Translations under genes and position numbers: made by a program
The notes under the pieces: generated by a model
Database searches by the model: none
Seen by the model: the letters and a program-made list of their open reading frames with translations, nothing else
What the model was told of the DNA's origin: nothing
In this document: piece by piece, positions 1 to 20,720 of the stretch
Numbering within the stretch: position 1 is the first letter of the stretch
Layout: each line of letters begins with the position of its first letter
Source of the DNA: a virus
Direction: 5' to 3' (one strand)
Length of the DNA: 20,720 nt
IMG/VR virus record: IMGVR_UViG_3300044858_004902
Span: 1 to 20,720 of that record

Positions 1-26
1 CACAGAAGGGCAGGTTTGGGGTATGA
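1..26 (+). CDS. C-terminal end of a preceding LamG-type protein (partial)
   Basis: Only the last codons are in the window. Reading from base 3, they give QKGRFGV followed by a TGA stop at 24-26. The next two genes end in HKGRFGL and RRGRFGL, so this is almost certainly the tail of a third member of the same LamG-type family. The stop overlaps the next ATG as ATGA, exactly as at the following junction. The rest of the gene lies upstream and cannot be described. Confidence 0.72.
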
Positions 27-742
27 GCACTAATTACTCTCCTGCTGTTGTGCGGCCCGGGCTAGTGTTGTTTCTTGACGCAGGTAACGTCAAGTCGTAT
101 CCCGGATCAGGATCGACAGTTAATAACCTTGTTCCTGGTGTGGCATATCCGTCAGTATCTTTGTTTGGCGATACAGTAAATTATGGGAGCATCGCAAACG
201 GTGTTGTCACATTAGGGGGCGCCAAAAATAATTCATCCTCTGGGACAATTCTAAGAGGCGCAGGTAATCTGGGCACAACAATTAATAGTGATTTCTCCTC
301 CATGGGATGGCTGTATAGGACAAGTTCATACAGCGGCGAAATATTGTCATACGTGGAATCTTCTTTTAGGGTGAGTTTTGATATAGACAGCGCAGCAATG
401 ACATTCTATCAGAGAATGCAGAATTCTCCATACACAGTTAATACGACAGGGGTGGTTGTCACGAATGCCTTAAATATATGGATACACTTTGCCCTTACTA
501 AGACAGGCAATTCGTGGGCATTCTATAAAAACGGAACACTATTGGGCACAAACACATTTACTATGAACGAAGTAATTCCAGCTGGGACTGCATTTCATAT
601 TGGCGGCGCATGGTCAGATGACGACTACTTGTCTAACTGTATGGACGGAAAAGTTGGGCCCATCATGCACTACACAAGAGCACTTTCCGCCGCCGAGGTT
701 CAACAAAACTTCAATGCACATAAAGGAAGGTTTGGACTATGA
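23..742 (+). CDS. LamG/concanavalin A-like phage surface protein
   Basis: A 239-residue protein with the layout of phage LamG (laminin G, concanavalin A-like lectin fold) proteins. The opening NYSPAVVRPGL leads into a first strand ending in LDAGN, followed by SYPGSGS. A central beta-rich region includes WIHFALTKTGNSWAFYKNG, the usual 'hydrophobic strand, K, strand, NG turn' of this fold. The closing YTRALSAAEVQQNF helix is followed by GRFGL. Such domains sit on phage virions and usually bind carbohydrates or decorate fibres, but the ligand is not visible here. No signal peptide or membrane segment is seen. The start is the ATG at 23, which overlaps the previous stop (ATGA), with an AAGG-type ribosome site inside the previous gene's GRFG codons. 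It is translationally coupled to the next gene by another ATGA. The fold is fairly certain; the exact virion position is inferred. Confidence 0.8.
   Translation: MSTNYSPAVVRPGLVLFLDAGNVKSYPGSGSTVNNLVPGVAYPSVSLFGDTVNYGSIANGVVTLGGAKNNSSSGTILRGAGNLGTTINSDFSSMGWLYRTSSYSGEILSYVESSFRVSFDIDSAAMTFYQRMQNSPYTVNTTGVVVTNALNIWIHFALTKTGNSWAFYKNGTLLGTNTFTMNEVIPAGTAFHIGGAWSDDDYLSNCMDGKVGPIMHYTRALSAAEVQQNFNAHKGRFGL
724..729 (+). promoter_or_regulatory. Ribosome-binding site inside the GRFG codons of the upstream LamG gene
   Basis: GGAAGG lies nine bases before the ATG at 739 and is read in the upstream gene as part of Lys-Gly-Arg (codons AAA GGA AGG). It is the only good Shine-Dalgarno sequence for the second LamG gene, so the conserved C-terminal protein motif and the next gene's translation signal share the same bases. 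A similar AAGG run lies in the last codons of the partial gene, upstream of the ATG at 23. Confidence 0.65.
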
Positions 743-1905
743 GCCTTAACCATTCCCCAGCTGTTGTCCGTGATGGACTAATAATGTATTATGACACAGG
801 CAATACTAAGAAGTCGTTTAAAGGGAAGCCAACTACCAATTTAGTGGTGACGGCACCTTTGACAATCACCACCTATGCATATTGTTCTGGCCCAGTGGCG
901 ACAGTAGTAGAAGATGCGACAGGGGCATTACGAACCGTCAACCGATATACAATTACTGTAGGGGGAGGAGGTCTCGCCCAGAGAGCAAGAGTGGTTATAA
1001 CACCGACCACAACGGGAGTAAATTATGCCTTTACTTGCAAGATAAAGTATAACGGCGGAGCAGCTGGGGTGTCTTGGTATGGCCCTGATGCGTCAAAAGG
1101 CAACCCAGAACCGACCAATAACACCTATACAACAAACACAACTTCATATACTGCAATTGGTAATGGGTGGTATCTCGCTAAAGAGGAGTTTTCTTTCGCC
1201 ACCAACCCGACCGGTGGAGGATGGTTATGTTACGGCCCTGTCAATGCCGCCTTAGGTGAGACGTTTGACGTGTATGAAGAGCAGTTTGAGGTTCAGCAAT
1301 ATGCAACGCCATATGAAAATGGCACAAGGTCTGCAACTCAGTCTATCTTAGACATTACCGCCAAACACACATTGAATGTCGGCAGCTTGGCATGGAGCTC
1401 TTCAAATAGTCCAGTGTTTAATGGAACATCTAGTTATCTTTATTCTACAGGAGCTCTGAATGGATTTCTCACAAATGGAATAACCATAACTGCAATGTTT
1501 AAATTGAATGCCAATCCAAGTGGGTTTTCTCAAATTTTTGGTGATTCGGGAATAGCCGGGGCAATATATGTAAGGAGTAATGGTAACATATTCGGGCAAC
1601 TTAGTATCACAGGTACAGGAAATGTCCTTTCTGGTGACTTTACTCCAACCTTAGGGACTTGGTACGAGGCGACCGTTGCATGGTCTTTTGGTGGTACGGT
1701 AAAACTGTACGTGAATGGGACACTTAGAACACAGTCTGCGGCTGCTTCCAATACGTTGTCTGCCTTTGGTGGGACAAGCGCAGGATTCTACTCAGGGACT
1801 TACTTAAACTATGATTTAGGTTTGGCACAAATATATAACAGAGAGCTTACTGCCGCCGAAATTTCTCAGAACTTTTTTGCCCGTAGAGGAAGGTTTGGAT
1901 TGTGA
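739..1905 (+). CDS. LamG-type phage surface protein with an inserted carbohydrate-binding-like domain
   Basis: A 388-residue paralogue of the preceding gene. It keeps the same ends (NHSPAVVRDGL then DTGN at the N-terminus; YNRELTAAEISQNF then RGRFGL at the C-terminus) but has about 150 extra residues after the first strand. That insert (about residues 30-185) is beta-rich and ends in a phage-typical linker, FEVQQYATPYENGTRS, which in related proteins joins a carbohydrate-binding-module-like sandwich to the LamG domain. The LamG core follows (about residues 200-388), with FNGTSSYL, WYEATVAWSFGG and KLYVNGT strands. The likely role is surface attachment or decoration; the ligand is unknown. It starts at the ATG of an ATGA overlap. 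Its own GRFG codons are followed not by another coupled start but by a promoter-like motif, so it closes this translational chain. Confidence 0.8.
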   Translation: MSLNHSPAVVRDGLIMYYDTGNTKKSFKGKPTTNLVVTAPLTITTYAYCSGPVATVVEDATGALRTVNRYTITVGGGGLAQRARVVITPTTTGVNYAFTCKIKYNGGAAGVSWYGPDASKGNPEPTNNTYTTNTTSYTAIGNGWYLAKEEFSFATNPTGGGWLCYGPVNAALGETFDVYEEQFEVQQYATPYENGTRSATQSILDITAKHTLNVGSLAWSSSNSPVFNGTSSYLYSTGALNGFLTNGITITAMFKLNANPSGFSQIFGDSGIAGAIYVRSNGNIFGQLSITGTGNVLSGDFTPTLGTWYEATVAWSFGGTVKLYVNGTLRTQSAAASNTLSAFGGTSAGFYSGTYLNYDLGLAQIYNRELTAAEISQNFFARRGRFGL

Positions 1906-1912
1906 ATAAATA
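1905..1912 (+). promoter_or_regulatory. T4-like late promoter motif AATAAATA
   Basis: One mismatch to the T4 late-promoter -10 consensus TATAAATA. Its first base is the last base of the LamG stop codon, and it ends 26 bases before the GTG start of the fibre gene. Three other gaps carry the same ATAAATA core at nearly the same distance. No -35 box is needed at T4-type late promoters. The match to T4 biology is inferred from sequence only. Confidence 0.65.
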
Positions 1913-1926
1913 TAACTGTATAGATA

Positions 1927-1932
1927 TAAGGA
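1927..1932 (+). promoter_or_regulatory. Ribosome-binding site TAAGGA supporting a GTG start
   Basis: TAAGGA ends six bases before the GTG at 1939, the expected Shine-Dalgarno spacing. It supports GTG as the start of the fibre gene. The encoded MASKLLITPFNGS opening also looks like the natural N-terminus of this structural family. Confidence 0.7.
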
Positions 1933-1938
1933 AAACCA

Positions 1939-3987
1939 GTGGCATCTAAACTCTTAATTACCCCATTCAACGGTTCCACGACAGCCGGCCAAGATCCCAC
2001 GATTAAATTCCAGGGTACGGGTAATGCATCCGACATTACCTTGCGAGTTGCTGCTGACGGAAACCTGTCGTTCGAGGGCACTGCTGGGCAATTAATGTCT
2101 ATTACCAACTCAATGTCTGGGACAATATTCTCAGCCAATGACGTGTCAGGTATTCCATCGATAGAAGTTCTTGACACAGGTCTCGTCAAGCTAAATGAGT
2201 TCAACGGCAACCTCCAAATTGGCGGCACAACCAATACTGCAAACCAAGTTACTCTCAAAGGAACCACAGAATCGACCAGTATTACAACTGGATCGTTAGT
2301 ATTGTCTGGTGGCGCTGCTGTAACTAAAAACCTCTATGCTGGTGGATCGGTGGTTGCTGCATCAGGGACAACAGGGGCGGGATATTTTGGATTAGGAACA
2401 GTATTGTCCTCTGGTGCGGGAGCAAATGACACCACATTGCGGTGGGATGGTTCGTCCGGATCGCTGAGATTCTCTTACGGAACATCTATCGTAGGCACTC
2501 TAAGCTCAGCAGGAGCACTGACAGTAAACGGAGCAGTAAACGGAGCATACTTCTCTACTCAAGCAGTATCGTCGTATGGGTACGGGTTCTGGACTGGCGT
2601 ACCTGGAACATATGGAATACTGATGTCTCCAGCAACAGATGGGACATATGGCGGTAGAATAGCTGGTGAAACAACTTCTGATTATAACATGTACTTCACG
2701 ATGACCCAAGCAACTAATCGTGGATTCATGTTTAGAAATGCATATGCCACACCTTTATTTGCAATAAATGGGGACGGGGTTAGATCTAACGTAGCAATTA
2801 CTTCAACTGGGGCCATTACTGGAACGTCCCATGTAGTAACAAGTAACTGTACCTTATCGGCCGGTACAGGTAGTACTACCAATAATTTAAATATTAAAGG
2901 ATCAGCTGCTGGAGCTACAGGCATATCACTGTATGATTCTGCTAATGCCTGGAAAATGCAGATCTATGGTGATGGCGCAGATTACGGCTGCTTGGGTTCT
3001 AACTGGGGTGCTTGGGATCTTAGGAAAACAATTAGTGGTGCATTGTATTTAAACAACAATGCCACTTACTATCTCAATCCAGCATCGACCACCAACCTGT
3101 CGTCTTTGACCGTAGCGAATACAATTACTGGGAGCGTCAGCGGCAGTGCTGCCACCTTAACTACGGCTAGAAATATTGGTGGTACCTCCTTTAATGGCTC
3201 AGCTAATATTATACCTCAGTATATTGCAGACTCGGGGCTTTATAGAATCACTAATCCTGGTGGTGGTGGTAGTACTAGTGCTACAAGTTCTCAAGTAGGT
3301 GCAATAAGAATTTCTTTACCTGTTGCAGGTGCTCAAAACACAATGGTAAGGTTTTCAGTAAAGATATATGAATATACTACTAATGAATCTTTTGAAGTCC
3401 ATTGTGGCGGTTATGTGTATACTGGAAATACTTGGGCTAATAACCCATTTGCCTACATAATTGGTAATCCTGGAATTGATCGTAATTTTACTGTTAGATT
3501 TGGATACACTGCTGGCGGTAAGATGTGTGTCTATATAGGAGAGCTAGCTTCATCATGGTCCTACCCACAAGTTAATGTTACGGAAGTGCAATGTGGTTAT
3601 TCTGGTCAATCAACCAATTGGACTACCGGATGGGCAATAGGATATGAGGCATCAGCATTTGAAAGTGTTACCGCTACTATATCTAATTGCCAAGTTGGCC
3701 AGTTAGCTGTAGCAACCCCCGCCGCATTAGGAACTGCGGCGGTTGGCACGAGCTCTTTAGTGGCTAGATCAGATCACGTTCACCAGTCTCCGACCACTAT
3801 TTCTGGTAATGCGGGTAGTGCTAATGCGCTGATGTCTGCAACAACCACAGTAAATGTATCGGCTGCTACTGCACCAAGTACCGGACAAGTACTAACAGCA
3901 ACAAGTTCCACAACTGCAACTTGGCAGACTGCAGGCGGTGGTGTTTCTGTTGGTGATGCTATGGCATATGCTATAGCATTAGGATAA
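1939..3987 (+). CDS. Tail-fibre-like mosaic structural protein
   Basis: A 682-residue low-charge, Gly/Ser/Thr/Ala-rich protein with several modules common in phage fibres. The N-terminal part (about 1-95) contains SGTIFSANDVSGIPSIEVLD, frequent in virion proteins of T4-like aquatic phages. Next come TTGSLVLSGGAAV (about 113-126) and fibre segments with GANDTTLRWDG. ATLTTARNIGGTSFNGSANI lies near 402-421. A beta domain spans about 430-590 after a GGGGS-like linker. AALGTAAVGTSSLVARSDHVH lies near 594-614; its HxH could bind metal as in trimeric fibres. GQVLTATSSTTATWQ lies near the end. It probably forms a trimeric fibre or adhesin on the baseplate or tail. No intramolecular chaperone (peptidase S74-like) domain is seen. 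The start is a GTG with a good ribosome site and a late-promoter motif. The PAAR gene follows four bases after its stop. Base composition changes along the gene, suggesting domain exchange. Confidence 0.75.
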   Translation: MASKLLITPFNGSTTAGQDPTIKFQGTGNASDITLRVAADGNLSFEGTAGQLMSITNSMSGTIFSANDVSGIPSIEVLDTGLVKLNEFNGNLQIGGTTNTANQVTLKGTTESTSITTGSLVLSGGAAVTKNLYAGGSVVAASGTTGAGYFGLGTVLSSGAGANDTTLRWDGSSGSLRFSYGTSIVGTLSSAGALTVNGAVNGAYFSTQAVSSYGYGFWTGVPGTYGILMSPATDGTYGGRIAGETTSDYNMYFTMTQATNRGFMFRNAYATPLFAINGDGVRSNVAITSTGAITGTSHVVTSNCTLSAGTGSTTNNLNIKGSAAGATGISLYDSANAWKMQIYGDGADYGCLGSNWGAWDLRKTISGALYLNNNATYYLNPASTTNLSSLTVANTITGSVSGSAATLTTARNIGGTSFNGSANIIPQYIADSGLYRITNPGGGGSTSATSSQVGAIRISLPVAGAQNTMVRFSVKIYEYTTNESFEVHCGGYVYTGNTWANNPFAYIIGNPGIDRNFTVRFGYTAGGKMCVYIGELASSWSYPQVNVTEVQCGYSGQSTNWTTGWAIGYEASAFESVTATISNCQVGQLAVATPAALGTAAVGTSSLVARSDHVHQSPTTISGNAGSANALMSATTTVNVSAATAPSTGQVLTATSSTTATWQTAGGGVSVGDAMAYAIALG

Positions 3988-3991
3988 CACA

Positions 3992-4279
3992 ATGCCAGCT
4001 ATAACAAGATTGGGAGTTGACCCTAGTGCAGGACATTGTTGGCCTTCACGACCTGCAGATTCGGGTTCGCCCAATGTATTTGTAAATGGGATTGCCACAA
4101 CTCGCATAACAGACCATTATCCAACACATTGCTGCTGCAATTCTTGCCATGATGGTGTGGCGTCAAAAGGATCGTCTACTGTGTTTGCAAACGGATTGGC
4201 TGTTCATAGAATTGGTGATGATATTAGTTGCGGCGATATATCAGCATCAGGGTCATCAAATGTGTTCGCAGGTGGGTAA
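3992..4279 (+). CDS. 5.4: PAAR-type spike tip protein (gp5.4-like)
   Basis: A 95-residue protein, about the size of T4 gp5.4, that caps the central gp5 spike and sharpens it for piercing the host outer membrane. The PAAR fold is supported by three internal strand repeats, GSPNVFVNG (25-33), GSSTVFANG (60-68) and GSSNVFAGG (87-95), which fits the pseudo-threefold cone of the family. ATTRITD and AVHRIGDD follow the first two. His and Cys residues able to hold the tip metal are present: H15, C16, H42, H46, C80. The run CCCNSC at 47-52 is an extra cysteine cluster. AGGA at 3981-3984, inside the end of the fibre gene, is the ribosome site, so it is probably co-translated with the fibre. T4 also places its PAAR gene just before the wedge genes. 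The phage context argues against a type VI secretion role. Confidence 0.88.
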   Translation: MPAITRLGVDPSAGHCWPSRPADSGSPNVFVNGIATTRITDHYPTHCCCNSCHDGVASKGSSTVFANGLAVHRIGDDISCGDISASGSSNVFAGG

Positions 4280-4319: not shown

Positions 4320-4706
4320 ATGAAATTCACATATTCTGACTTCGGGTTATTATTCAAAAAACACCCATCTACTCAAGATATAATTGTTAAGTATGACGTA
4401 GATGCAATTCGCCAAGCACTAACTGTGTTGTTTTTGACAAACAACTATGAAAAACTGTTCGATCCAAATTTTGGGATTGGTATGAGGGGATTGTTGTTTG
4501 AAAACATGACATCCATCACCAAAATTGCGCTGCTCAAAAAGATAAAAAATCAAGTTGCATTTTATGAACCTCGTGTGGTTGTTGAAGATATAAAGATGAA
4601 CAATGATTTTGATTCAAATGATCTTAGAGTAGACTTTTATTTTTATCCTGTTGGGAATCCTTCCCAAAAAGAAATATTAACACTGTCATTTGAAAGAATT
4701 AGATAA
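4320..4706 (+). CDS. 25: Baseplate wedge protein gp25 (GPW/gp25 family), sheath initiator
   Basis: A 128-residue protein, close to the 132 of T4 gp25, which has a lysozyme-like fold without lytic activity. In T4-type baseplates gp25 sits in the inner ring, stabilises the gp6-gp53 contact and starts sheath polymerisation by donating a strand to the first sheath subunit. Visible family features are an early basic and aromatic N-terminus (YSDFGLLFKKHP), the central FLTNNYEKLFDPNFGIGMRGLLFE segment, and the conserved EPR motif at about 85-87 (YEPRVVVEDI), followed by an alternating C-terminal strand region ending LSFERIR. The ribosome site is weak (AAGAA-like, 4308-4312). gp6 begins three bases after the stop. 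Here it sits between PAAR and gp6; in T4, gene 25 is elsewhere, while other T4-like phages place it beside gp6. Confidence 0.92.
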   Translation: MKFTYSDFGLLFKKHPSTQDIIVKYDVDAIRQALTVLFLTNNYEKLFDPNFGIGMRGLLFENMTSITKIALLKKIKNQVAFYEPRVVVEDIKMNNDFDSNDLRVDFYFYPVGNPSQKEILTLSFERIR

Positions 4707-4709
4707 CCC

Positions 4710-6500
4710 ATGAGTACATTCAATAATAGCAACATTCGTGTCTCAGATCTCGATTTTGCGTCTATAAAGAGCAACTTTATTGAGTATCTAAAATCTCAAG
4801 CAGAATTTGCAGACTATGATTTTCAAGCATCGGGAATGTCTATTTTGCTTGACGTTATGGCATACAACACATACTATAACTCTGTCCTAGCTAACTTTGT
4901 TGCTAATGAGACATTTATCGACAGTGCAGTTAAGCGTAATTCTGTTGTGGCACATGCTAAATCTTTAGGATATCGCCCAAAATCAGTTAAGTCTGCGAAA
5001 GCAAAAATCCAATTGACATTGACAAACGCTGTTGGTGAACCAAACCAATTGGTAATGAAAGCTGGTACTCCATTTGAAACTACAGTTAGGGAACAAACAT
5101 TCCAGTTTGTTACTCTGAATGACATTAAAGCATCTGTCGATAATAGCGCATACAACTTCGGGGAATTCCACATTTATCAAGGTCAATTCCAACAAAACAC
5201 ATTTGTTGCAAGCGGGAAAAAGGCTGAGAAATTCACATTACCAAATGCAGGTGTTGACTCATCTAGTATTCGTGTTGTGGTTCAAACATCTGCAACAGTT
5301 CTTGATTATGCATTTTATAACCCATCAGATACAGTTGTTGATATTGATGGCGACTCAAATACATTCTTCATCCAAGAGGGCATTTCTGGTAAAGCAGAGA
5401 TCTATTTTGGCGACGGCGTTATTGGGAAACAGTTGGCAGCAGGAAACATTATAACTGTTACTTATATTACATCATTGGGCCAGAGTGCCAATGATGCAAA
5501 GGTTTTTAAATTGACAGGAACAATCGAAGGTAACAGCGTGGTTAGTGTTTCGACAATTGAAACTGCCAGTGGTGGTGCAGACCCTGAGGATATTGATTCT
5601 ATTCGATTCAATGCAACAACATATTTTGGTGTTCAAAATAGGGCTGTAACCGCAGGTGATTATCGGGCCCTAATTTTGCAGAATTTCCAAAACGTGAAGA
5701 ATGTGGTAACGTGGGGTGGAGAAAAACAAGTTCCACCAGAATATGGCAAAGTGTTTGTTTGCATTCAACCTAAAAATACGGATTTTCTTACTGATTCAGA
5801 AAAGGCGGAAGTTTCTGAAATTGTAAGAAAACGAGCAGTTGCAAACGTCTCAGTTAAGTTTTTGGATCCAGAATATATTGACATAGAGCTTACAACCTCA
5901 GTATTTTATGACCCAGTTAAAAATGATAAGAACACATTGGATTTACAGAATAGTGTGATAACTGCAATATCACAATACGGTGATAATTATCTAGGTAACT
6001 TCGATAATACATTTAGGTATTCTCAGCTTAGTAGAATCATCGACAATTCAGATTTTTCGATTCTCAATAACCTGACAAGTTTTAGAGTCTTTAAATCATT
6101 CATACCGGTCTTGTCTGAATACAATGGTATAGACTTCATATTCAATAACAGTATGTCACCAAACGTTTATGATCCTGTTGTGTATTCCAGTGGGTTTTAT
6201 ATTGCTGGTGCAACAGAAAAGATGTTTATAAAAGATAATGGTTTGGGAATATTGAGACTGGTTTATAACGATGCTGCTGGTGTCGAGCGAGTTTATGATG
6301 CTAATGTTGGAACGGTTAAGTATGATGTTGGTTCGATAAGCACTAAATCATTAGACATAACCGAATATGATGGTAATGAAATACAAATCTTTATAAAGCC
6401 CAAAATCAATGACATATTATCCAAAAACAACAACATTGTGCGACTACAATCGAAAAATGTAACTGTTAACATATTAACCGATTCGACTGAGAACAGATAA
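4710..6500 (+). CDS. 6: Baseplate wedge protein gp6 (baseplate J-like)
   Basis: 596 residues, against 660 in T4 gp6. gp6 dimers form the continuous inner iris of the baseplate, joining the six wedges and changing shape when the sheath contracts. The N-terminal signature is clear: FIEYLKSQAEFADYDFQASG (about 24-43), MSILLDVMAYNTYYNSVLANFVANETFIDSA, then KRNSVVAHAKSLGYRP (about 76-91). A central beta domain contains IYFGDGVIGKQL (about 230-241), a strand-turn motif typical of baseplate J-like proteins, and GGADPEDIDSIRFNA followed by the YRALI helix (about 288-325). No membrane or signal segment is seen. The stop overlaps the next gene's ATG by one base (TAATG), so translation is coupled to the gp7-related gene, the T4 order 6-7. 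Confidence 0.92.
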   Translation: MSTFNNSNIRVSDLDFASIKSNFIEYLKSQAEFADYDFQASGMSILLDVMAYNTYYNSVLANFVANETFIDSAVKRNSVVAHAKSLGYRPKSVKSAKAKIQLTLTNAVGEPNQLVMKAGTPFETTVREQTFQFVTLNDIKASVDNSAYNFGEFHIYQGQFQQNTFVASGKKAEKFTLPNAGVDSSSIRVVVQTSATVLDYAFYNPSDTVVDIDGDSNTFFIQEGISGKAEIYFGDGVIGKQLAAGNIITVTYITSLGQSANDAKVFKLTGTIEGNSVVSVSTIETASGGADPEDIDSIRFNATTYFGVQNRAVTAGDYRALILQNFQNVKNVVTWGGEKQVPPEYGKVFVCIQPKNTDFLTDSEKAEVSEIVRKRAVANVSVKFLDPEYIDIELTTSVFYDPVKNDKNTLDLQNSVITAISQYGDNYLGNFDNTFRYSQLSRIIDNSDFSILNNLTSFRVFKSFIPVLSEYNGIDFIFNNSMSPNVYDPVVYSSGFYIAGATEKMFIKDNGLGILRLVYNDAAGVERVYDANVGTVKYDVGSISTKSLDITEYDGNEIQIFIKPKINDILSKNNNIVRLQSKNVTVNILTDSTENR

Positions 6501-12516: not shown

Positions 12517-13992
12517 ATGTCAGCCATAATCACAAATAACTATAGAGTCACAAATGTCGAAACTTTTCTGAAGTCCCTCGAGGGATCACCAGCATCTAAT
12601 TACCTATATACATTTATTGGTAATTCATTGACTTGGTCTGATTCTCGTGGTGCTGGTGCTGTGAATGACACAACAGTTCCGCCACCTGTCGATACTCTAG
12701 ACGACTTTAACTTTATATGGAATAACATGCTTGCTCTTAAGAGAGTTCAAAGGGCAAATGTGTCTGCAGGCATATTGAAGCGAAATTGGACTGCAAACAC
12801 ATATTATGACATTTATCGACATGATTATGGTTTAACTGGTGTCACTGGATTAAGTGAGAATGGTTCAACAACAACCCCACTTACTCTAGCAGATGCAAGA
12901 TACTATGTTGTAACTAAAAATGGTAACGTGTATATTTGTGTAGGTAATAACCGTGGTCAGAACGCATCATTGATTGATCCTCAAACGCAAGGAACAGGCA
13001 TAGGGTTCTCCAATTTCACATTATCAGACGGGTATGTTTGGAGATATATTGCTACTGTCTCTTCCACCGACTATGCAAATTTTTCAACTATAGAATTTCA
13101 TCCTGTTAAAACTATAACAACTCCTCCTGATATCGGAGATTCGTATGAGTCACAATATCTGGCACAAGAGGCAGCAAAAACGAACGGCGGCGCAATTTAT
13201 AATGTATTGGTCGGTGCAGCAGGTAACAATACTGACCCTGCCACTCAATCACAAATAATTGATAGCCCAAATGCACTCATATCAATAAAAGGCGATGGTA
13301 CTGGGCTACAAATAAGGCTGCACACAAATGCAAGTGGCGGCGTATCTTATGTTAGTGTATTAAACCCTGGATCTGGTTATTCTTACTGTAGTATAACACT
13401 ACCGTCATTTTCTGGAACTAAATTAACACCAATTTTGACACCCAGGTATGGCCTGGGCGCTCGCCCTGTTCAAGACTTAAATGCGTATTATTTGCTGATT
13501 AGTTCAACTCTAACAAAGAATGAAGGTGATGGGGATTTCACAACATCGAATAACTACAGGCAGGTTGGCTTGGTATTAAATCCATTGATAGGTGGTGGCA
13601 CCACAGTTGCTAATGCATCAACATTAGATGCATCAATAACTCTAACTTTAGCTAATGCAACTGTGTCATTTGAAGTAGATGCTGAGGTTGTGAATAATGC
13701 TAATGGAACTCGAGGGCGGGTCATTGATTGGGCACCTGATGTATTTAAATTGAGGGTGAACTTCGGAAAACCTACACTTCTAAGTAATTGGGGCCCAGTG
13801 GCATCATTTTCTGCACTCGATACCATATATCAAATAACCTCAGGTGGGAATAGTGATAATGTGGCTATCGCATCAGTAACAGATCCTGAAGTTTCACATC
13901 ACACTGGTGACATCTTGTATTTTGAGAACAGAAGACCAATTCAGAGAGACCCAAACCAAATTGAAGAAATACATATTGCAATCGAATTCTAA
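12517..13992 (+). CDS. 8: Baseplate wedge protein gp8, enlarged
   Basis: 491 residues; T4 gp8 has 334. gp8 is a dimeric wedge component bound to gp7 and gp10 at the outer baseplate. Recognisable parts are DFNFIWNNMLALKRV (about 68-82), the LKRNWTANTYYDIYRHDYG segment (about 88-106), NGNVYICVGNN, SDGYVWRYIATVSSTDYANF (about 170-189), and a C-terminus HHTGDILYFENRRPIQR...QIEEIHI that closely parallels the remembered T4 gp8 ending (HSGEMIYMENRPPI...TEEINI). The extra length includes a copy of the gp7-type beta repeat at about residues 251-292 (ISIKGDGTG...SVLNPGSGYSY) and a later beta segment (about 350-440). It lies directly after gp7 as in T4, with its own promoter-like motif, and 15 bases before the DUF4815 gene. 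Confidence 0.85.
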   Translation: MSAIITNNYRVTNVETFLKSLEGSPASNYLYTFIGNSLTWSDSRGAGAVNDTTVPPPVDTLDDFNFIWNNMLALKRVQRANVSAGILKRNWTANTYYDIYRHDYGLTGVTGLSENGSTTTPLTLADARYYVVTKNGNVYICVGNNRGQNASLIDPQTQGTGIGFSNFTLSDGYVWRYIATVSSTDYANFSTIEFHPVKTITTPPDIGDSYESQYLAQEAAKTNGGAIYNVLVGAAGNNTDPATQSQIIDSPNALISIKGDGTGLQIRLHTNASGGVSYVSVLNPGSGYSYCSITLPSFSGTKLTPILTPRYGLGARPVQDLNAYYLLISSTLTKNEGDGDFTTSNNYRQVGLVLNPLIGGGTTVANASTLDASITLTLANATVSFEVDAEVVNNANGTRGRVIDWAPDVFKLRVNFGKPTLLSNWGPVASFSALDTIYQITSGGNSDNVAIASVTDPEVSHHTGDILYFENRRPIQRDPNQIEEIHIAIEF

Positions 13993-14007: not shown

Positions 14008-17000
14008 ATGACGATTAATTTTTCAGTTGCTCCATACTATGATGATTTTGACTCAACCAAAAACTATCACAAGATACTTTTTGTCCCGGGCCGAGCACTA
14101 CAATCACGTGAATTAACACAAATTCAGTCCATATTGCAGCATCAGATTAAGCTCAATGGGGATTACATGTTCAAAAATGGTGCAATGATTGTACCAGGTA
14201 ATGTTGATCTTTTGAACAACGTCAGATATGTAAAATTGGAATCGACAATAGATGGTGTTTCAACTGACACGATAATCGACAGCTTCTTAGATAAAAAAAT
14301 TGTAGGTGCAACTACCGATGTTAAGGCAGTTGTTATTCATGTTGAAAAATCGACTGCCTCCGAACCGCCAACCTTGTTTATTAACTACATTTCGGGTGGT
14401 GTGGTAAACAATGTATTCAGCACTGAGTTTATTAGAAACGAAGAGCTGTGTTTAGAAGAAGATGCCAACACTATTCTTAAAGTGTTGAACCTGTCCACTT
14501 ACACTGGTTTGGGGTCATTGGCAAATATCAAAGAAGGTGTTTACTACATTAATGGATTCTTTGTTCAGAATGTTGCACAAGTAATCTCGCTCGATAAATT
14601 TGGCATTACACCAACATATCGCATAGGTCTTAGCTTTGTCGAGAACATCATAACAGCATTTGATGATCCGACACTTAATGATACAGCAGTCGATTCCAAT
14701 AACTTCGGTGCACCTGGTGCTGATCGATACCAAGTTGTTCTTACATTGGATAAGAGATCATTATTTGAAGACCAAGAAAACACCAATACTACAAATGATC
14801 AATTTATCGACCTTCTCCACGTTAAGGATGGTCAAATCCAATTCAAAGTTAACAAAACCGAATTGAGTGAATTTGAAAGGACGTTGGCAAGGAAAACATA
14901 CGACGAGTCTGGTGATTATGTTGTCAGACCGTTTAAATATGAAGTACATGAGTACCGAAACAACAACAGAGGCGATTGGGCGCCATCAACAGTCTATATT
15001 GAAGGTGACATTATAAAGAAGAGTGTGACTGTTGGTATCACAACTAAAGATCAGTACTTTGTTGCATTGGTTAATGGTGTATCATCTCCAACAACATTTG
15101 TCCCCACTAACACATACGGTGAATTTGACGACTCCACAATGCGTTGGCTGGCTACTGATAAGCCAGTATTTAACACAGGGTTTCACAAATCAACATCAGC
15201 AGAAACATTTGACAAACAACTACTAGACTCCTCACTCGGACTGATAAAGATATCAGAAGGTACAGCATTTATCAAGGGATTTGAAGTTGATGTGTCGGGA
15301 TACAGAACTGTCACGTTCAACAAAGCAAGAGAAATCAAACGTGTGGCGAACAGCGTAATAAAGTGCAATACGGGAGCATACATTCTTGTTAATACAGTTA
15401 GAGGAATTCCACCACTAACCCATATCGACTCGTCAAATAAAGTGCTGTCAAAATTGACCATTAAGAATGCAGTCGGCGCTTCTGTAGGAACATGCAGAAT
15501 AAGGAACGTAGAATACGATTCAGGCACCACAACTCTAGATTCTTGCGTATATAAGTGCTTCATTTTCGACATTGTTATGGATGACGGAAAACTATTTTAT
15601 CGGGATGCTAAAAAGATCATTACAGCTAGCAACACAACATTCTCTGCCAATGTTGTGGGGACAAGAGTTGCTTTGTCGGGGTCAGTGACAGGGTCAGCAG
15701 GAACTATAAATGGTGATGGTACTCAGTTCTCGTTGGATCTTGTTGTTGGTGACACAATTGTCATTTCTGGCGTTTCGTATCGTGTTTCAGCTGTAACCGA
15801 TTCTGTTACATTGACATTAGATACAGCAACACCAACTATAGCAACCGCTGTCCCAGTGTATTTGGAAAGAACGGAACTTGTTGGTGCGGCGTCATTACTA
15901 CAGAAACTACCTACAGGTTTTGTGAGGTCTCTGAGAGGTTCTGATGACAGTGAATTATCAACTGAATACTACACCAAACGTGTTGAGCAATTTGTGGCGA
16001 GTGGTACAACTAAGGCGATACCTCTGACAGTTACTGGTGAGACATTTGCCCCAAACACAACTGGTAATTACTTCATTGCATTGGCTGACGGATCAGCTAT
16101 ACCTGTAGTTGCAACTGTTGCTGGAGCAGGCACAAGCAGTATTACAATCTCAGGATTGACGAATGCAGTAACATATCGTGTGATGTACACCGTTAAAAAG
16201 ATATCAGCTGCTGCTAAAGAAAAGCAAAAAATAAGAAAAATAAAAACGGTCGACTTTACGACAGTTAATTCAGTGAGTGGCGAGTTCATGCAGCTGACTG
16301 AAGCAGACTGCACAAGAATAATTTCGATATCACAGTCTGGTGGCACACAATTCAATTATGCGAGCCCTGCTGCAACTGTATCATATGATGTATCGGTGTT
16401 GGCAACAGATGTCACATCAAATTACAGACTGGACTCGGGTCAAACAAACACATATTATGGCCTCGGTAAAATTTATCCACTAAATGGGTTCAAACCAAGT
16501 GCGCCTATTCGTGTGACATATGAGTATTTTGATCACACTCAAGGTGATTACTTCTCTGTAAATTCGTACAATGTCCCATACAATATGCTACCTGTATTTA
16601 ATGGTGTTAGTGCGGCAGATTACTTGGACTTTAGGCCACGCATCGATGATAATGGCACCACATTCGACGCTGCAACTGGAGCATCAGTTACAGAACCATT
16701 ATCAGAATTCTACTCACTACAAACAGACTATTCTTACTACCTAGCTAGACGTGATATTCTACAACTCGACCCTAAAGGATCATTTAGGGTTGAAGAAGGT
16801 ATACCTGCTGATCTACCAGTTGCGCCGCTGCCTAATGATGATAATGTCATATTAGCTTACGTCGATTTGGATCCTTACACATTTACTTCCAATAGTTCAA
16901 ATGTTCATATCACCAATAATCCTATGCAAAGATACACCATGAAGGATATTGGTGCAATAGATAACAGACTAAAGAATGTTGAATACTACACTGCACTAAA

Positions 17001-20000
17001 TGCTCTGGAACAACAAACAAGTCTACTTCAAATCAAGGACCAATTTGGACTTGACAGATATAAAAATGGATTCATTGTTGATCGATTCAAAGATCATGGT
17101 GCTGGTAACGTTTCCAACCCCAACTACAGATGCGCTATCGATCCCGGTAGTTTAGAGTGCCGCCCGTCGTTCTACTCCGACGATGTTAGACTGCTAGAGA
17201 AGGAAGGCCAGTCCAGGACAACGAATAGTTACCAGGTTACAGGTGATATTGCAACACTCCCTTATTCTAGTGTTGTTTTGATGGAGCAAAAAACAGCAAC
17301 AACACCCGAGTATATTACACCATACACCCATGTTAGATCAATGATTGGTGACTTAAAGATATTCCCTGCATCAGATACATGGGTTGATACAGTAACATTG
17401 CCTGTGATAAATCAAGTCGGAAATGGAAACTTTGCCGCTGTTCAAGTTATGGCACAATCAACAGGCATACTTGGTACAGTATGGAATTCGTGGCAAGCTA
17501 CAGGCAGAACAACAATTGCATCGACACTAACCAATAGTGTTAGTAGAGTTGGTGTTGGTGCTCAAGGTGCCGAAACATCAAGAACGAATGTGGTTTCGAC
17601 AAACACATTAAATGGAACTGACTTACTAACTTTTGGTCGTGGCGGGATAGAGACATTTGTTCAAGAACAGATAGACGAAGTTGGAAGAGTAACTTCAGTA
17701 GTTGATGAAAGTTGGTCGCCATTTATCAGACAAAAAGCTATAGTTCTCTTTGCTAAGAGAATGCTTCCTATAAACGGGTTCGATGTGTATGTTGATAACA
17801 CAACTTTGACTCAATATGTTGTACCTGCAAGTACATTGAGATTAACTGATAAAGTCGGCACATTCTTGAACTATAGTACATCGAATATCGATCACTCCAA
17901 CTTAACTTCTAGGCAATATGGATCAAATTCATATGACATATTGGAGAGAGGTGAAGTTATACGAGGTGCCACATCCGGTGCAACAGCAATTGTTGTGTGC
18001 GAAGAAACACAAGTGGAGTTAGGTATCTCGGAATTGGTCCTTAAGGTGTTAAATGTAAAAGGTACATTTGTTGCCAATGAAAAGATTGTGGGCACCACTT
18101 CAGGCGCTTCTGCAACCTTTACATCTGTTACGACAGAAACGAATATCAGAACAAATAGTGCTGGTAGTTTCTACGGAATTTTAATGTTACCTAACAACAG
18201 TCAGGTTAGAATAACTGCTGGTATTGTGACGATCTCTTTAAGAGATAACATCGATCAGAAAAGTGCCAAAACAACCTCATTTGCAATGTACGATGGTCAA
18301 GGCATAATTCAGACAATGCAGACAACTATAATGTCTATCAGAAATGGAGTCATTAGTAGGAGAAATGCCTCGGAGACGTCACAAACTACTGAGAATTGGT
18401 CAACGGTCGTATCCAGTACAGTCATTGCAACTGAAGTGACAAACTGTAACTGTGCATGTAACTGTGCATGTGATTGCGGCTCAGACCCATTATCACAAAC
18501 ATTTATGCACAGTGATCGGGGCGGCATATTCTTAACATCAATCGACTTGTATTTCTATGACGTGGATCAAGATGAGTCGACAGGTGTATCATTCGAGATT
18601 CGTGAGGTTGTGAATGGGTATCCCGGCCCAGGTGTTGTGCCGTTCAGTCACGTTGTGAAATATCCTAGTGAGTTAGTTGCATCGAAAACATCATTGGTAC
18701 CTACAAAATTCACGTTCGATTCACCGGTTTATCTACCTGACAATAAAGAATATTGTTTTGTTGTTGCATCTGGCATCAGCAATACGAGATTGTGGATTGC
18801 TAAAATGGGAGAAGTTTCCTTAGATGGTAGGTCTGTGGTGTCACAACCAAGTTTAGGGTCAATGTTTAGGTCACAGAATAACTCAACTTGGGATGCTGAT
18901 CAACTTAGTGATATGTGCTTTACATTATACAAAGCTAAGTTCAACATCACAACTCCGGGTCATGTTGCATTCAAGAACATTCCTCTGGGATCGACAAAGT
19001 TAGATAACAACCCATTCAAAATCAATGCAAGTTCTACAACTGTCAGAGTGTCGCACAAAAATCACGGCCTATATGATGGTGCAATAATAACCTTCTCTGG
19101 TGTGGTGTCGGCTCTAACTCATCCAACCTCTGTTGAATTGAATAAAGACTTTACCATTAGTGATGTTGAGTTAGATTCCTACACAATCACAATTCCTGTT
19201 GCTGCAACAAATTCTGGCTGGTACGGCGGCGCAGCATGTATGGTCACAACAGGCAGAAGAATGGACACAATGCATGTTAGCGGAAAGGATTTTGTCCTCC
19301 CTGGCACTCACATAAATTACACATACCGTGGCACAACTAGAATTAACAACGTTGTTGAAAAGCTTGCAATCGATTATCCTGTCCAATTGAATAGGAACAT
19401 CGAGTTTGATAATCCTAGATATGTTCTGACACCTGCGAATGAAACAGATACTGTAAATGAAGACTCATTTTCTTTTGATGCTTTCTTATACAGCAACAAT
19501 GAAAACTTATCGCCTGTTGTTGATTTACCAACATACTCATTACACACAATCAGTAACAAGATCAATAACCCAACAAGTGCAATAAACAAAGAAATCGATA
19601 GTAATTTGATTTTTAGTGTGGCTGGTGGTCATTCTGGTGTCATAGTATTCAACAATGCCGGTTATTTTATTATTTCTGGTGGGCTTTATGGGTCATATGT
19701 CACTGAATTAGGAGGTATAAAGGTTGGAAAGTATGTCAAGTTTACAGGGACTGTATCTAATAATAGCCCTCTGTTAGTGACAAAAGTTGAAAAACTATCT
19801 ACACCTTCATATAAGATATACACATCATCAACTGTTGTCACTGAAACAGCACCAACAACGGCAATTACTTTGGTTAGGTATGATCATTATGTTGATGCAA
19901 TCTCTCCTGACACAGCAAGCAATTTGGCATCGTATGTATCGAAGATTGTAGAGTTACAGAAGCAGTCCTCAGGATTTAAATTGATGTTTGATTATAACAA

Positions 20001-20253
20001 ACCTGTGGATGCTCATATTGATGTTTACTATAAGGTGAATCTAAAATCAGCGTATGGTAATATCGAAAGACAAAATTGGACAAAACTGAGTGATGCTACA
20101 TTCGTTGAAGGCTTAACGTCAGTTTTCAGAGAACAGTCTATAGATATGGAAACCGCGTTGTACGATCAAATAATGATTAAGATTGTGTTGAATTCTGATA
20201 ATACTTCAAAGGTTCCTAGAATAAAGAATTTCAGATTGATTTCCTTGGCATAA
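14008..20253 (+). CDS. Giant DUF4815-type virion structural protein
   Basis: A 2081-residue virion protein of the DUF4815 type common in aquatic T4-like phages. The N-terminal signature is APYYDDFD...NYHKILFVPGRALQSRELTQ (8-40), then NGAMIVPG. An insert at 323-383 carries a W/YxxGD/W carbohydrate-binding-like pattern. A long conserved stretch at about 748-1008 includes YLDFRPRIDD, YSYYLARRDILQL, DLDPYTFTS, RYTMKDIGAIDNRLKNVEYYTALNALE. Two GExxxGxTSGA modules lie near 1315 and 1356. A cysteine motif occupies 1479-1491. SDPLSQTFMHSDRGGIFLTSIDLYF, NGYPGPGVVP and PSLGSMFRSQNNSTWDADQ span about 1492-1640. An NHGLYDG module has H1686, and the C-terminus contains FDYNKPVDAHIDVYYKVN. The position after gp8 suggests a peripheral wedge or fibre-attachment part, where T4 has gp9-gp10, but I see no likeness to those. 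TAAGG (13995-13999) is the ribosome site; there is no separate promoter. Confidence 0.8.
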   Translation: MTINFSVAPYYDDFDSTKNYHKILFVPGRALQSRELTQIQSILQHQIKLNGDYMFKNGAMIVPGNVDLLNNVRYVKLESTIDGVSTDTIIDSFLDKKIVGATTDVKAVVIHVEKSTASEPPTLFINYISGGVVNNVFSTEFIRNEELCLEEDANTILKVLNLSTYTGLGSLANIKEGVYYINGFFVQNVAQVISLDKFGITPTYRIGLSFVENIITAFDDPTLNDTAVDSNNFGAPGADRYQVVLTLDKRSLFEDQENTNTTNDQFIDLLHVKDGQIQFKVNKTELSEFERTLARKTYDESGDYVVRPFKYEVHEYRNNNRGDWAPSTVYIEGDIIKKSVTVGITTKDQYFVALVNGVSSPTTFVPTNTYGEFDDSTMRWLATDKPVFNTGFHKSTSAETFDKQLLDSSLGLIKISEGTAFIKGFEVDVSGYRTVTFNKAREIKRVANSVIKCNTGAYILVNTVRGIPPLTHIDSSNKVLSKLTIKNAVGASVGTCRIRNVEYDSGTTTLDSCVYKCFIFDIVMDDGKLFYRDAKKIITASNTTFSANVVGTRVALSGSVTGSAGTINGDGTQFSLDLVVGDTIVISGVSYRVSAVTDSVTLTLDTATPTIATAVPVYLERTELVGAASLLQKLPTGFVRSLRGSDDSELSTEYYTKRVEQFVASGTTKAIPLTVTGETFAPNTTGNYFIALADGSAIPVVATVAGAGTSSITISGLTNAVTYRVMYTVKKISAAAKEKQKIRKIKTVDFTTVNSVSGEFMQLTEADCTRIISISQSGGTQFNYASPAATVSYDVSVLATDVTSNYRLDSGQTNTYYGLGKIYPLNGFKPSAPIRVTYEYFDHTQGDYFSVNSYNVPYNMLPVFNGVSAADYLDFRPRIDDNGTTFDAATGASVTEPLSEFYSLQTDYSYYLARRDILQLDPKGSFRVEEGIPADLPVAPLPNDDNVILAYVDLDPYTFTSNSSNVHITNNPMQRYTMKDIGAIDNRLKNVEYYTALNALEQQTSLLQIKDQFGLDRYKNGFIVDRFKDHGAGNVSNPNYRCAIDPGSLECRPSFYSDDVRLLEKEGQSRTTNSYQVTGDIATLPYSSVVLMEQKTATTPEYITPYTHVRSMIGDLKIFPASDTWVDTVTLPVINQVGNGNFAAVQVMAQSTGILGTVWNSWQATGRTTIASTLTNSVSRVGVGAQGAETSRTNVVSTNTLNGTDLLTFGRGGIETFVQEQIDEVGRVTSVVDESWSPFIRQKAIVLFAKRMLPINGFDVYVDNTTLTQYVVPASTLRLTDKVGTFLNYSTSNIDHSNLTSRQYGSNSYDILERGEVIRGATSGATAIVVCEETQVELGISELVLKVLNVKGTFVANEKIVGTTSGASATFTSVTTETNIRTNSAGSFYGILMLPNNSQVRITAGIVTISLRDNIDQKSAKTTSFAMYDGQGIIQTMQTTIMSIRNGVISRRNASETSQTTENWSTVVSSTVIATEVTNCNCACNCACDCGSDPLSQTFMHSDRGGIFLTSIDLYFYDVDQDESTGVSFEIREVVNGYPGPGVVPFSHVVKYPSELVASKTSLVPTKFTFDSPVYLPDNKEYCFVVASGISNTRLWIAKMGEVSLDGRSVVSQPSLGSMFRSQNNSTWDADQLSDMCFTLYKAKFNITTPGHVAFKNIPLGSTKLDNNPFKINASSTTVRVSHKNHGLYDGAIITFSGVVSALTHPTSVELNKDFTISDVELDSYTITIPVAATNSGWYGGAACMVTTGRRMDTMHVSGKDFVLPGTHINYTYRGTTRINNVVEKLAIDYPVQLNRNIEFDNPRYVLTPANETDTVNEDSFSFDAFLYSNNENLSPVVDLPTYSLHTISNKINNPTSAINKEIDSNLIFSVAGGHSGVIVFNNAGYFIISGGLYGSYVTELGGIKVGKYVKFTGTVSNNSPLLVTKVEKLSTPSYKIYTSSTVVTETAPTTAITLVRYDHYVDAISPDTASNLASYVSKIVELQKQSSGFKLMFDYNKPVDAHIDVYYKVNLKSAYGNIERQNWTKLSDATFVEGLTSVFREQSIDMETALYDQIMIKIVLNSDNTSKVPRIKNFRLISLA
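18448..18471 (+). repeat. 12-base tandem repeat encoding an alternating-cysteine motif
   Basis: AACTGTGCATGT occurs twice in tandem, in frame, giving NCAC-NCAC. With flanking codons the protein reads NCNCACNCACDCG (residues 1479-1491), six cysteines at every second position. This sits just before the conserved SDPLSQTF segment of the DUF4815 protein. The role may be metal binding or cross-linking; this is not known from the sequence. Confidence 0.75.
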
Positions 20254-20283: not shown

Positions 20284-20720
20284 ATGACACTTAATCTAAA
20301 TTCTGCACCATATTATGATGATTTTGATCCTGCTGACAATTATCTAAAGATATTGTTTCTGCCAGGTAGAACTATTCAGCCTCGTGAACTAACGCAATTA
20401 CAAACCACCATTCAAGAGCAAATAAAGAAGCACGGCGACTTCAATTTCCAAAATGGTGCAATGATTGTTCCTGGGTATATCAACTTTAGCAATAGAGTTA
20501 CATATGTAAAATTGAATGAGTTGGTTTCTGGGGTGTCAGTCAATAGTGTTATAGATGCACTCTCAGGGAAAATTGTTGTTGGTTCGACCACAGGAGTAAA
20601 AGCATTAGTTCTGTTTAGTGAAAAATCAACATTAACAGATTCAGCTGCATTGTTTGTTCAATATGTGTCAGGCGGATTAGATCCACTGGATACCTCAATA
20701 CTGTATTCAGAATTTAAACC
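20284..20720 (+). CDS. Second DUF4815-type virion protein, N-terminal part (runs off the window)
   Basis: An open frame from ATG 20284 to the window edge (145 full codons, no stop). It opens MTLNLNSAPYYDDFD, then NYLKILFLPGRTIQPRELTQLQ and FQNGAMIVPG, and later VVGSTTGVKALVLFSEKST. About 42 of the first 64 residues are identical to the preceding 2081-residue protein, so it is a tandem paralogue and likely another giant virion protein. An ATG at 20276 is out of frame and reaches a stop after three codons, so 20284 is the start. It has its own late-promoter motif, unlike the first copy, and could be expressed at a different level. Confidence 0.85.
   Translation, partial: MTLNLNSAPYYDDFDPADNYLKILFLPGRTIQPRELTQLQTTIQEQIKKHGDFNFQNGAMIVPGYINFSNRVTYVKLNELVSGVSVNSVIDALSGKIVVGSTTGVKALVLFSEKSTLTDSAALFVQYVSGGLDPLDTSILYSEFK

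Follow-up and report, generated by a model that had tools for sequence, protein, structure and literature searches.

Tandem LamG genes at a phage contig edge end in a conserved GRFG tail whose codons probably double as the ribosome site of an overlapping next gene

The virus record IMGVR_UViG_3300044858_004902 of IMG/VR begins with a run of LamG genes adjoining T4-type baseplate genes, and we here analyze its 20,720 bases (the window) with a focus on the GRFG peptide that ends the LamG proteins. Three successive family members end in GRFGV, GRFGL and GRFGL, in that order, as an earlier note on this DNA had described. The window contains three instances of the pattern GGNMGNTTYGGNNTNTGA (9-26, 725-742 and 1888-1905), against none in 100 dinucleotide-preserving shuffles. 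The three-tail observation itself is confirmed. The features concerned, including Shine-Dalgarno (SD)-like runs and a short open reading frame (ORF), are as follows:

1..26, + strand: 3' end of the upstream family member, QKGRFGV and stop, truncated by the contig edge (26 nt visible)
6-14, + strand: SD-like AAGGGCAGG of the upstream member, before the ATGA overlap at 23-26
23..742, + strand: LamG1, 239 aa, Laminin_G_3 (PF13385), E 5.4e-11
725..742, + strand: GRFGL tail of LamG1, with GGAAGG at 725-730, 8 nt before the LamG2 ATG, and an ATGA overlap at 739-742
739..1905, + strand: LamG2, 388 aa, Laminin_G_3 at residues 229-376 (C-terminal part), E 8.5e-15
1888..1905, + strand: GRFGL tail of LamG2, GGA AGG TTT GGA TTG TGA, with a GTGA overlap at 1902
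1902..1949, + strand: 15-codon ORF opened by the GTGA overlap and ending just past the GTG at 1939

At the first two junctions the next gene starts within an ATGA overlap, again as the earlier note had it, and the SD-like run lies 8 nt before the start. Its further statement that the Gly-Arg codons supply the AAGG or GGAAGG holds for the second junction, but at the first the Gly codon is GGC and AAGG is formed together with the preceding Lys codon (AAG GGC AGG). After the third tail no long gene lies in the frame opened by the GTGA, and the next long gene runs from the GTG at 1939; the 15-codon ORF could be what is left of a former junction or cassette, or a ribosome relay to that GTG. For the three tails, the predicted energy of pairing with the anti-SD upstream of the start comes to −7.4, −7.4 and −7.5 kcal/mol; the other eight window starts checked give +0.2 to −4.0 kcal/mol. 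Two marks of coupled gene pairs are found at the first two junctions, namely a short stop/start overlap and an intragenic SD at usable spacing, which across the family exceeds synonymous expectation.

To gather tails irrespective of the Gly and Arg codons they use, viral contigs were scanned for DNA encoding NFNAxxGRFG, and a replication scan used NFNAxxGRYG. Each scan returned at least 120 stretches, and all counts of tails, loci and pairs given here refer to this sample and are lower bounds. At least 341 tails were found, of which 295 remained after dereplication at 90% over up to 120 last nt before the motif plus the tail. ORFs were called mechanically, with a minimum for the next ORF of 80 aa, lowered to 15 aa where it runs off the contig, and loci L001-L004, L127 and L223-L225 were left out. 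The main contrast sets 132 overlapped against 117 uncoupled tails; outside it stand starts at 0 to +6 (n = 22, GGR-AGR in 9), ATG overlaps opening short ORFs (n = 21, GGR-AGR in 17) and contig edges (n = 3, GGR-AGR in 1).

Overlapped tails spell Gly-Arg as GGR-AGR in 115 of 132 cases, compared with 45 of 117 uncoupled tails (p 7e-16), and the AGG codon occurs in 85/132 versus 22/117 (p 2e-13). The loci of the second scan alone repeat the difference (GGR-AGR in 41/51 coupled and 11/39 uncoupled tails). Gly-Arg dipeptides internal to the first-scan ORFs have AGG in 16/157 and GGR-AGR in 55/157, and the spellings of coupled tails are diverse (GGAAGG, GGGAGG, GGGAGA and GGAAGA). The proposal of the earlier note, in which the Gly-Arg codons also serve the following gene as its ribosome site, strongly passed the codon test that the note itself had put forward: the bias toward the purine spelling where a gene follows was seen and replicated, but it is not exclusive to such tails. 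Taken as a whole, its interpretation is partly supported.

The shift is also seen within single loci and across the family tree. In the 37 loci that hold both kinds of tail the coupled tail is the more purine-rich in 26, with no reverse case and 11 ties (the window being a tie), and by anti-SD energy 30 loci favour the coupled tail, 4 the reverse and 3 tie. From a tree built on 236 sequences of the LamG C-terminal domain come 82 independent coupled/uncoupled pairs, which split 42 to 4 with 36 ties by spelling and 69 to 12 with 1 tie by energy. Coupling status is not clustered on this tree (85 changes versus a mean of 78 in 200 shuffles); changes are as frequent as in the shuffles, and hence coupled and uncoupled tails are not separate lineages. 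Against a null from synonymous resampling, the mean anti-SD energy is −7.8 versus −6.1 for 4-nt overlaps (n = 86) and −8.6 versus −5.9 for 1-nt overlaps (n = 46). Uncoupled tails with a later gene (n = 100) pair more weakly than synonymous chance (−4.9 versus −5.8, p 6e-5), and those with no gene found after them lie at −5.1 versus −6.0 (n = 17, p 0.08), which suggests that an SD of no use tends to be avoided.

The spelling follows an overlapping start, and any gene suffices: overlapped tails have GGR-AGR in 88/100 when the follower is a LamG gene, 14/19 when it is a non-LamG gene and 13/13 when it is an ORF running off the contig, and at gaps of at least 7 nt the same classes give 6/14, 26/66 and 6/20. 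Judging by these counts, it is the overlap, and not the kind of following gene, that governs the spelling.

A related pattern at junctions with a small gap was spotted post hoc, after the data were seen. When the next start lies 1-6 nt past the stop, 11 of 34 junctions have GGA-GNN as the final codon pair (GGA-GTA in 9), an ending found elsewhere in 2/154 uncoupled and 8/168 overlapped tails; it puts GGAG close to the start, the Gly-Arg run being further away. Gly-Val tails with a near start use GGA in 10/10 cases versus 2/13 when uncoupled. Loci L020, L030, L091, L109 and L119, in which the start lies 2 or 3 nt past the stop, have GGA-GTA as the final Gly-Val codons and GGAG near the start.

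Some pairs of related arrays indicate that LamG bodies have been replaced while their ends were conserved. L158 and L191 share 4.2 kb of downstream DNA at 93.7% identity, and protein identity is 99% for cassette 2 and 36% for cassette 3, although cassette 3 retains near-identical DNA at its start and over its last 38 nt. DNA identity climbs to almost 100% at one junction's ATG and drops again about 55-100 nt into cassette 3; cassette 1 of L191 is truncated by the contig end, and its visible part is unlike L158 up to the junction. A search with the gene adjoining these two arrays returned the same two contigs and no further relative. In L008/L017 a diverged array, with a common block around the first junction, lies between flanks that are 96% identical over 438 nt and 91% over 403 nt, and one body is replaced in L018/L050 (flanks 89-95%) and in L140/L141 (less close, flanks 88 and 83%). 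L148/L222 match on the right flank only (98.6%), the body retaining one similar stretch, and the exchange pattern is less clear in L026/L067 and L048/L079. Because the pairs were chosen for broken similarity, they illustrate exchange and give no rate. The replaced module between matching flanks is thus seen in relatives; for the phage of the window the sole close contig lacks most of the array. When at least 437 LamG ORFs (not dereplicated) are joined at less than 7 nt, 155 stand singly and 75 chains have two members, 32 three and 8 four to six, with chains ending where contigs end. The suggestion of the earlier note that genes can be expanded or swapped fits a few pairs of relatives as far as swapping goes; gain of a whole cassette was not noticed among the pairs viewed. 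What sets L210 apart from L059 is an inserted 385-aa gene that has no GRFG tail and lies before the LamG gene of L210, and this extra gene opens with MIIQG, as do the LamG genes of L059, L107 and L055.

The tail is a feature of the protein itself, which the ribosome site exploits. Laminin_G_3 scores are 43.3 bits for LamG1 and 55.6 bits for LamG2, versus a curated cut-off of 27.6. An AlphaFold2 model of LamG1 (pTM 0.83, mean pLDDT 78) is a jellyroll with a confident C-terminal helix at 223-237 (block pLDDT 91-97), followed by the end of the GRFG tail. By fold, its best viral matches carry the names of ConA-like or LamG-like jellyroll proteins (E to 2e-17). Its best matches in the PDB (E to 1e-10, 13-18% identity) belong to clostridial toxin binding domains, an arabinanase domain and trans-sialidases, which we take to hold ConA-like domains. 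On this model LamG1 is predicted to have the ConA-like jellyroll fold; receptor binding by the LamG proteins is a guess from fold and position. LamG1 was aligned with 53 of 150 candidate members, picked for Gly at the tail site and Arg/Lys beside it; Gly and Arg are the sole invariant columns at a mean column identity of 25%, the invariance of Gly being by choice because members were selected for it. Among 385 dereplicated LamG ORF ends, 277 are GR[FY]G plus 1-2 residues and 108 end otherwise, often in [ST]R[FY]G, and the C-terminal consensus is LTxxEIxQNFNAxRGR[FY]G[ILV]. A bacterial origin of the tail was considered and rejected: a codon-neutral pattern gave 38 stretches in genome contigs, of which, by eye, 3 are LamG gene-end tails (L247, L250 and L254) and the remaining 35 look like chance matches. 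The three contigs may themselves be phage.

Comparison of sequences shows the dual spelling, its link to the overlap and the replacement of bodies, and we consider it very probable that these belong to one arrangement, a tandem LamG chain with dual-message tails that provide an SD for the overlapping successor and so could make the units exchangeable. The region would be the edge of such a chain of ConA-like genes, probably translationally coupled. The last codons would carry two messages, and the peptide is kept with or without a following gene. With an overlap of 4 or 1 nt, most Gly-Arg codons read GGR-AGR and would serve as an SD, 8-11 nt ahead of the next start, at which terminating ribosomes can presumably re-initiate; without an overlapping start the spelling relaxes and SD-like forms tend to be avoided. 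Because each gene carries the ribosome site of its successor and its own ATG overlaps its predecessor, the unit from one ATG to the next could be exchanged without upsetting expression. We infer actual re-initiation, tolerance of insertions and lectin or receptor binding. A bolder version, to which we give slightly less than even weight, is an open-ended array of lectin heads in which every gene is both a protein and a translation primer. A coding joint of about 40 nt, made up of the helix tail, the SD, the overlapping start and a conserved N-terminus, would allow in-register exchange between phages, and the codons would record the successor.

Several observations weigh against the dual-message tail. 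The third tail of the window keeps GGAAGG despite being uncoupled by the ORF rule, a tie within its own locus; GGR-AGR in the uncoupled tails of the sample is about as common as inside the genes (45/117 and 55/157), and both uncoupled tails of S-SKS1 read GGAAGA. Single coupled tails are rarely extreme, with 24% (4-nt) and 33% (1-nt) within the strongest 5% of the synonymous null, and 23 of the 34 near junctions lack the shifted SD. As 25 coupled members without Gly have weak SDs (mean −3.5), the overlap can do without Gly; presence of Gly and coupling are only weakly linked (Gly in 141 coupled and 113 uncoupled members, non-Gly in 25 and 41; odds ratio 2.0, p 0.013). The idea that uncoupled tails with a strong SD are relics of lost junctions was dropped, since any overlapping start codon occurs in just 2 of 18 GGAAGG/GGGAGG tails (the third of the window and L045), and relics therefore fail to account for them. 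Likewise rejected was the expectation of a host effect, in which junction SD strength would track SD use at the other genes of the same contig, taken as a host proxy: across 74 loci no correlation was seen (Spearman −0.01, p 0.94), though Flavobacterium phage immuto is a single case that agrees with it. Finally, none of the close pairs viewed was noticed to differ by an entire LamG cassette, for which no systematic search was made.

The strongest alternative is that these are ordinary overlapping genes, in which the SD commonly lies in the end of the predecessor, and that the GRFG motif merely lies there with nothing specific to the family. Ordinary overlap coupling is indeed the underlying mechanism: an intragenic SD is typical of overlapping pairs according to Huber et al. 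2019 (PMC6728339), the non-LamG overlaps in our loci also exceed their own synonymous null (p 0.003 and 1e-5), and tails that overlap non-LamG genes show the purine spelling as well. However, the LamG junctions are far stronger, with 71% of 93 and 81% of 58 overlapping pairs at a free energy of −6 or below, compared with 22% of 88 and 27% of 74 other overlapping pairs at the same position in the same loci, although the latter are mechanical ORFs that may contain false genes. The SD is moreover supplied by a conserved peptide across diverged cassettes, and the uncoupled tails of the family fall below the synonymous null. As a full account we therefore regard it as possible but doubtful.

Two further alternatives concern descent and recombination. 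Purine spelling could be shared among duplicates or products of gene conversion rather than selected for initiation, and the junction DNA kept between the otherwise diverged arrays of L008/L017 means that tails may travel by recombination. Yet coupled tails hold several spellings, coupling is scattered over the LamG tree with independent pairs strongly on one side, and uncoupled tails fall below the synonymous null; we hold copying to be quite improbable. It is also unlikely, if less so, that recombination came first, the block of about 40 nt of tail plus start being a homologous joint at which lectin bodies are exchanged, and constraint on that joint giving the SD as a by-product. Bodies replaced between conserved ends in L158/L191, L008/L017, L018/L050 and L140/L141, and with one flank only in L148/L222, are what such a joint would give, but a pure joint predicts the same spelling in the uncoupled members of a contig, and 26 of 37 loci switch while the peptide stays.

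Downstream of the array the window carries the following genes:

1939..3987, + strand: first long gene after the array (682 aa), starting at GTG behind an AAGGA-type SD of its own (−4.0 kcal/mol)
at 3992: PAAR gene, T4-type baseplate
at 4320: gp25 gene, T4-type baseplate
at 4710: gp6 gene, T4-type baseplate
at 6500: large gene with a baseplate or virion-protein match
at 12517: large gene with a baseplate or virion-protein match
14008-20253: gene matching phrog_358, a family without known function

For the 682-aa gene, neither Pfam (at E 0.1) nor PHROGs (at E 0.01) gave a match. The genes at 14008-20253 and 20284-20718, the second of which runs off the window, start nearly alike (APYYDDFD, then LPGR/VPGR and RELTQ) and so appear to be a tandem pair. 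The best among the matches listed for gp6 are Prochlorococcus and Synechococcus phages at 35-37% identity, and the virus would, by its genes, be T4-like and cyanophage-like. A search for related loci with this gp6 gave 3 loci, and one with LamG1 gave no confirmed locus. One near-identical contig was found (L004, 99.99% over 14,692 nt), which starts at window position 1806 and thus has nothing upstream of it and lacks most of the LamG array. At 44,597 bases it exceeds the stretch fetched and could lengthen the genome downstream.

The arrangement is a clear example of a short sequence that is constrained twice, as a conserved tail of one protein and as a ribosome site for the next gene, and the second constraint shows in the synonymous codons. 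How a tail is spelled gives a probabilistic hint as to whether a gene should follow at an overlap, which is useful at contig ends. If the joint does guide exchange, it would offer a simple account of how lectin heads vary without breaking expression.

Phage tail proteins with LamG domains are already known (PMC7824862). Among known coupling systems, the closest is termination-reinitiation at short overlaps as described in PMC6728339, with which the LamG junctions share the overlap and the intragenic SD; the difference is that the LamG SD is spelled by the conserved C-terminal peptide of one family, that its codons follow the overlapping start and that it recurs in tandem. According to the same paper, Cyanobacteria use the SD infrequently at de novo starts and amply for re-initiation, and Bacteroidetes do neither; yet only three groups, Cyanobacteria being one, have SD fractions at overlaps as low as theirs (40%). 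The window, with a strong SD solely at its LamG tails among the starts checked, would fit this cyanobacterial pattern in part, given the 40%, and the array of Flavobacterium phage immuto, in which no SD is seen, is in line with the Bacteroidetes pattern.

LamG-like jellyroll proteins of the cyanophages S-SKS1 and S-PM2 and of immuto have similar sequences and, taken together, similar tails (KGRYGL, RTRFGL and KTRFGL), and those of S-SKS1 and S-PM2 are among the best fold matches. S-SKS1 has two copies 12 nt apart with the SD in the spacer, unlike the overlaps of the window, and the tail of S-PM2 is uncoupled. In immuto (L224:5900-7460) the LamG-like copies, which end in TRFG or TRFN tails, are separated by 1 nt and by eye lack any SD-like run, and 0 of 10 ATG starts on L224 reach −4.5 kcal/mol, a count in which LamG starts are not separated. 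The first LamG-like gene of immuto overlaps its annotated tail-fibre-like predecessor by 1 nt.

A limited literature search, which is weak evidence of absence, found no description of a conserved C-terminal peptide that supplies an SD with overlap-dependent codons and tandem recurrence. Overlap coupling with an intragenic SD is known; a peptide-spelled SD that tracks the overlap is, as far as this search shows, new. Lambdoid phages exchange gene modules at conserved boundary (linker) sequences, and the LamG arrays resemble them in having diverged modules between short conserved ends. The LamG boundary differs in that it is itself coding and would carry the ribosome site of the next module.
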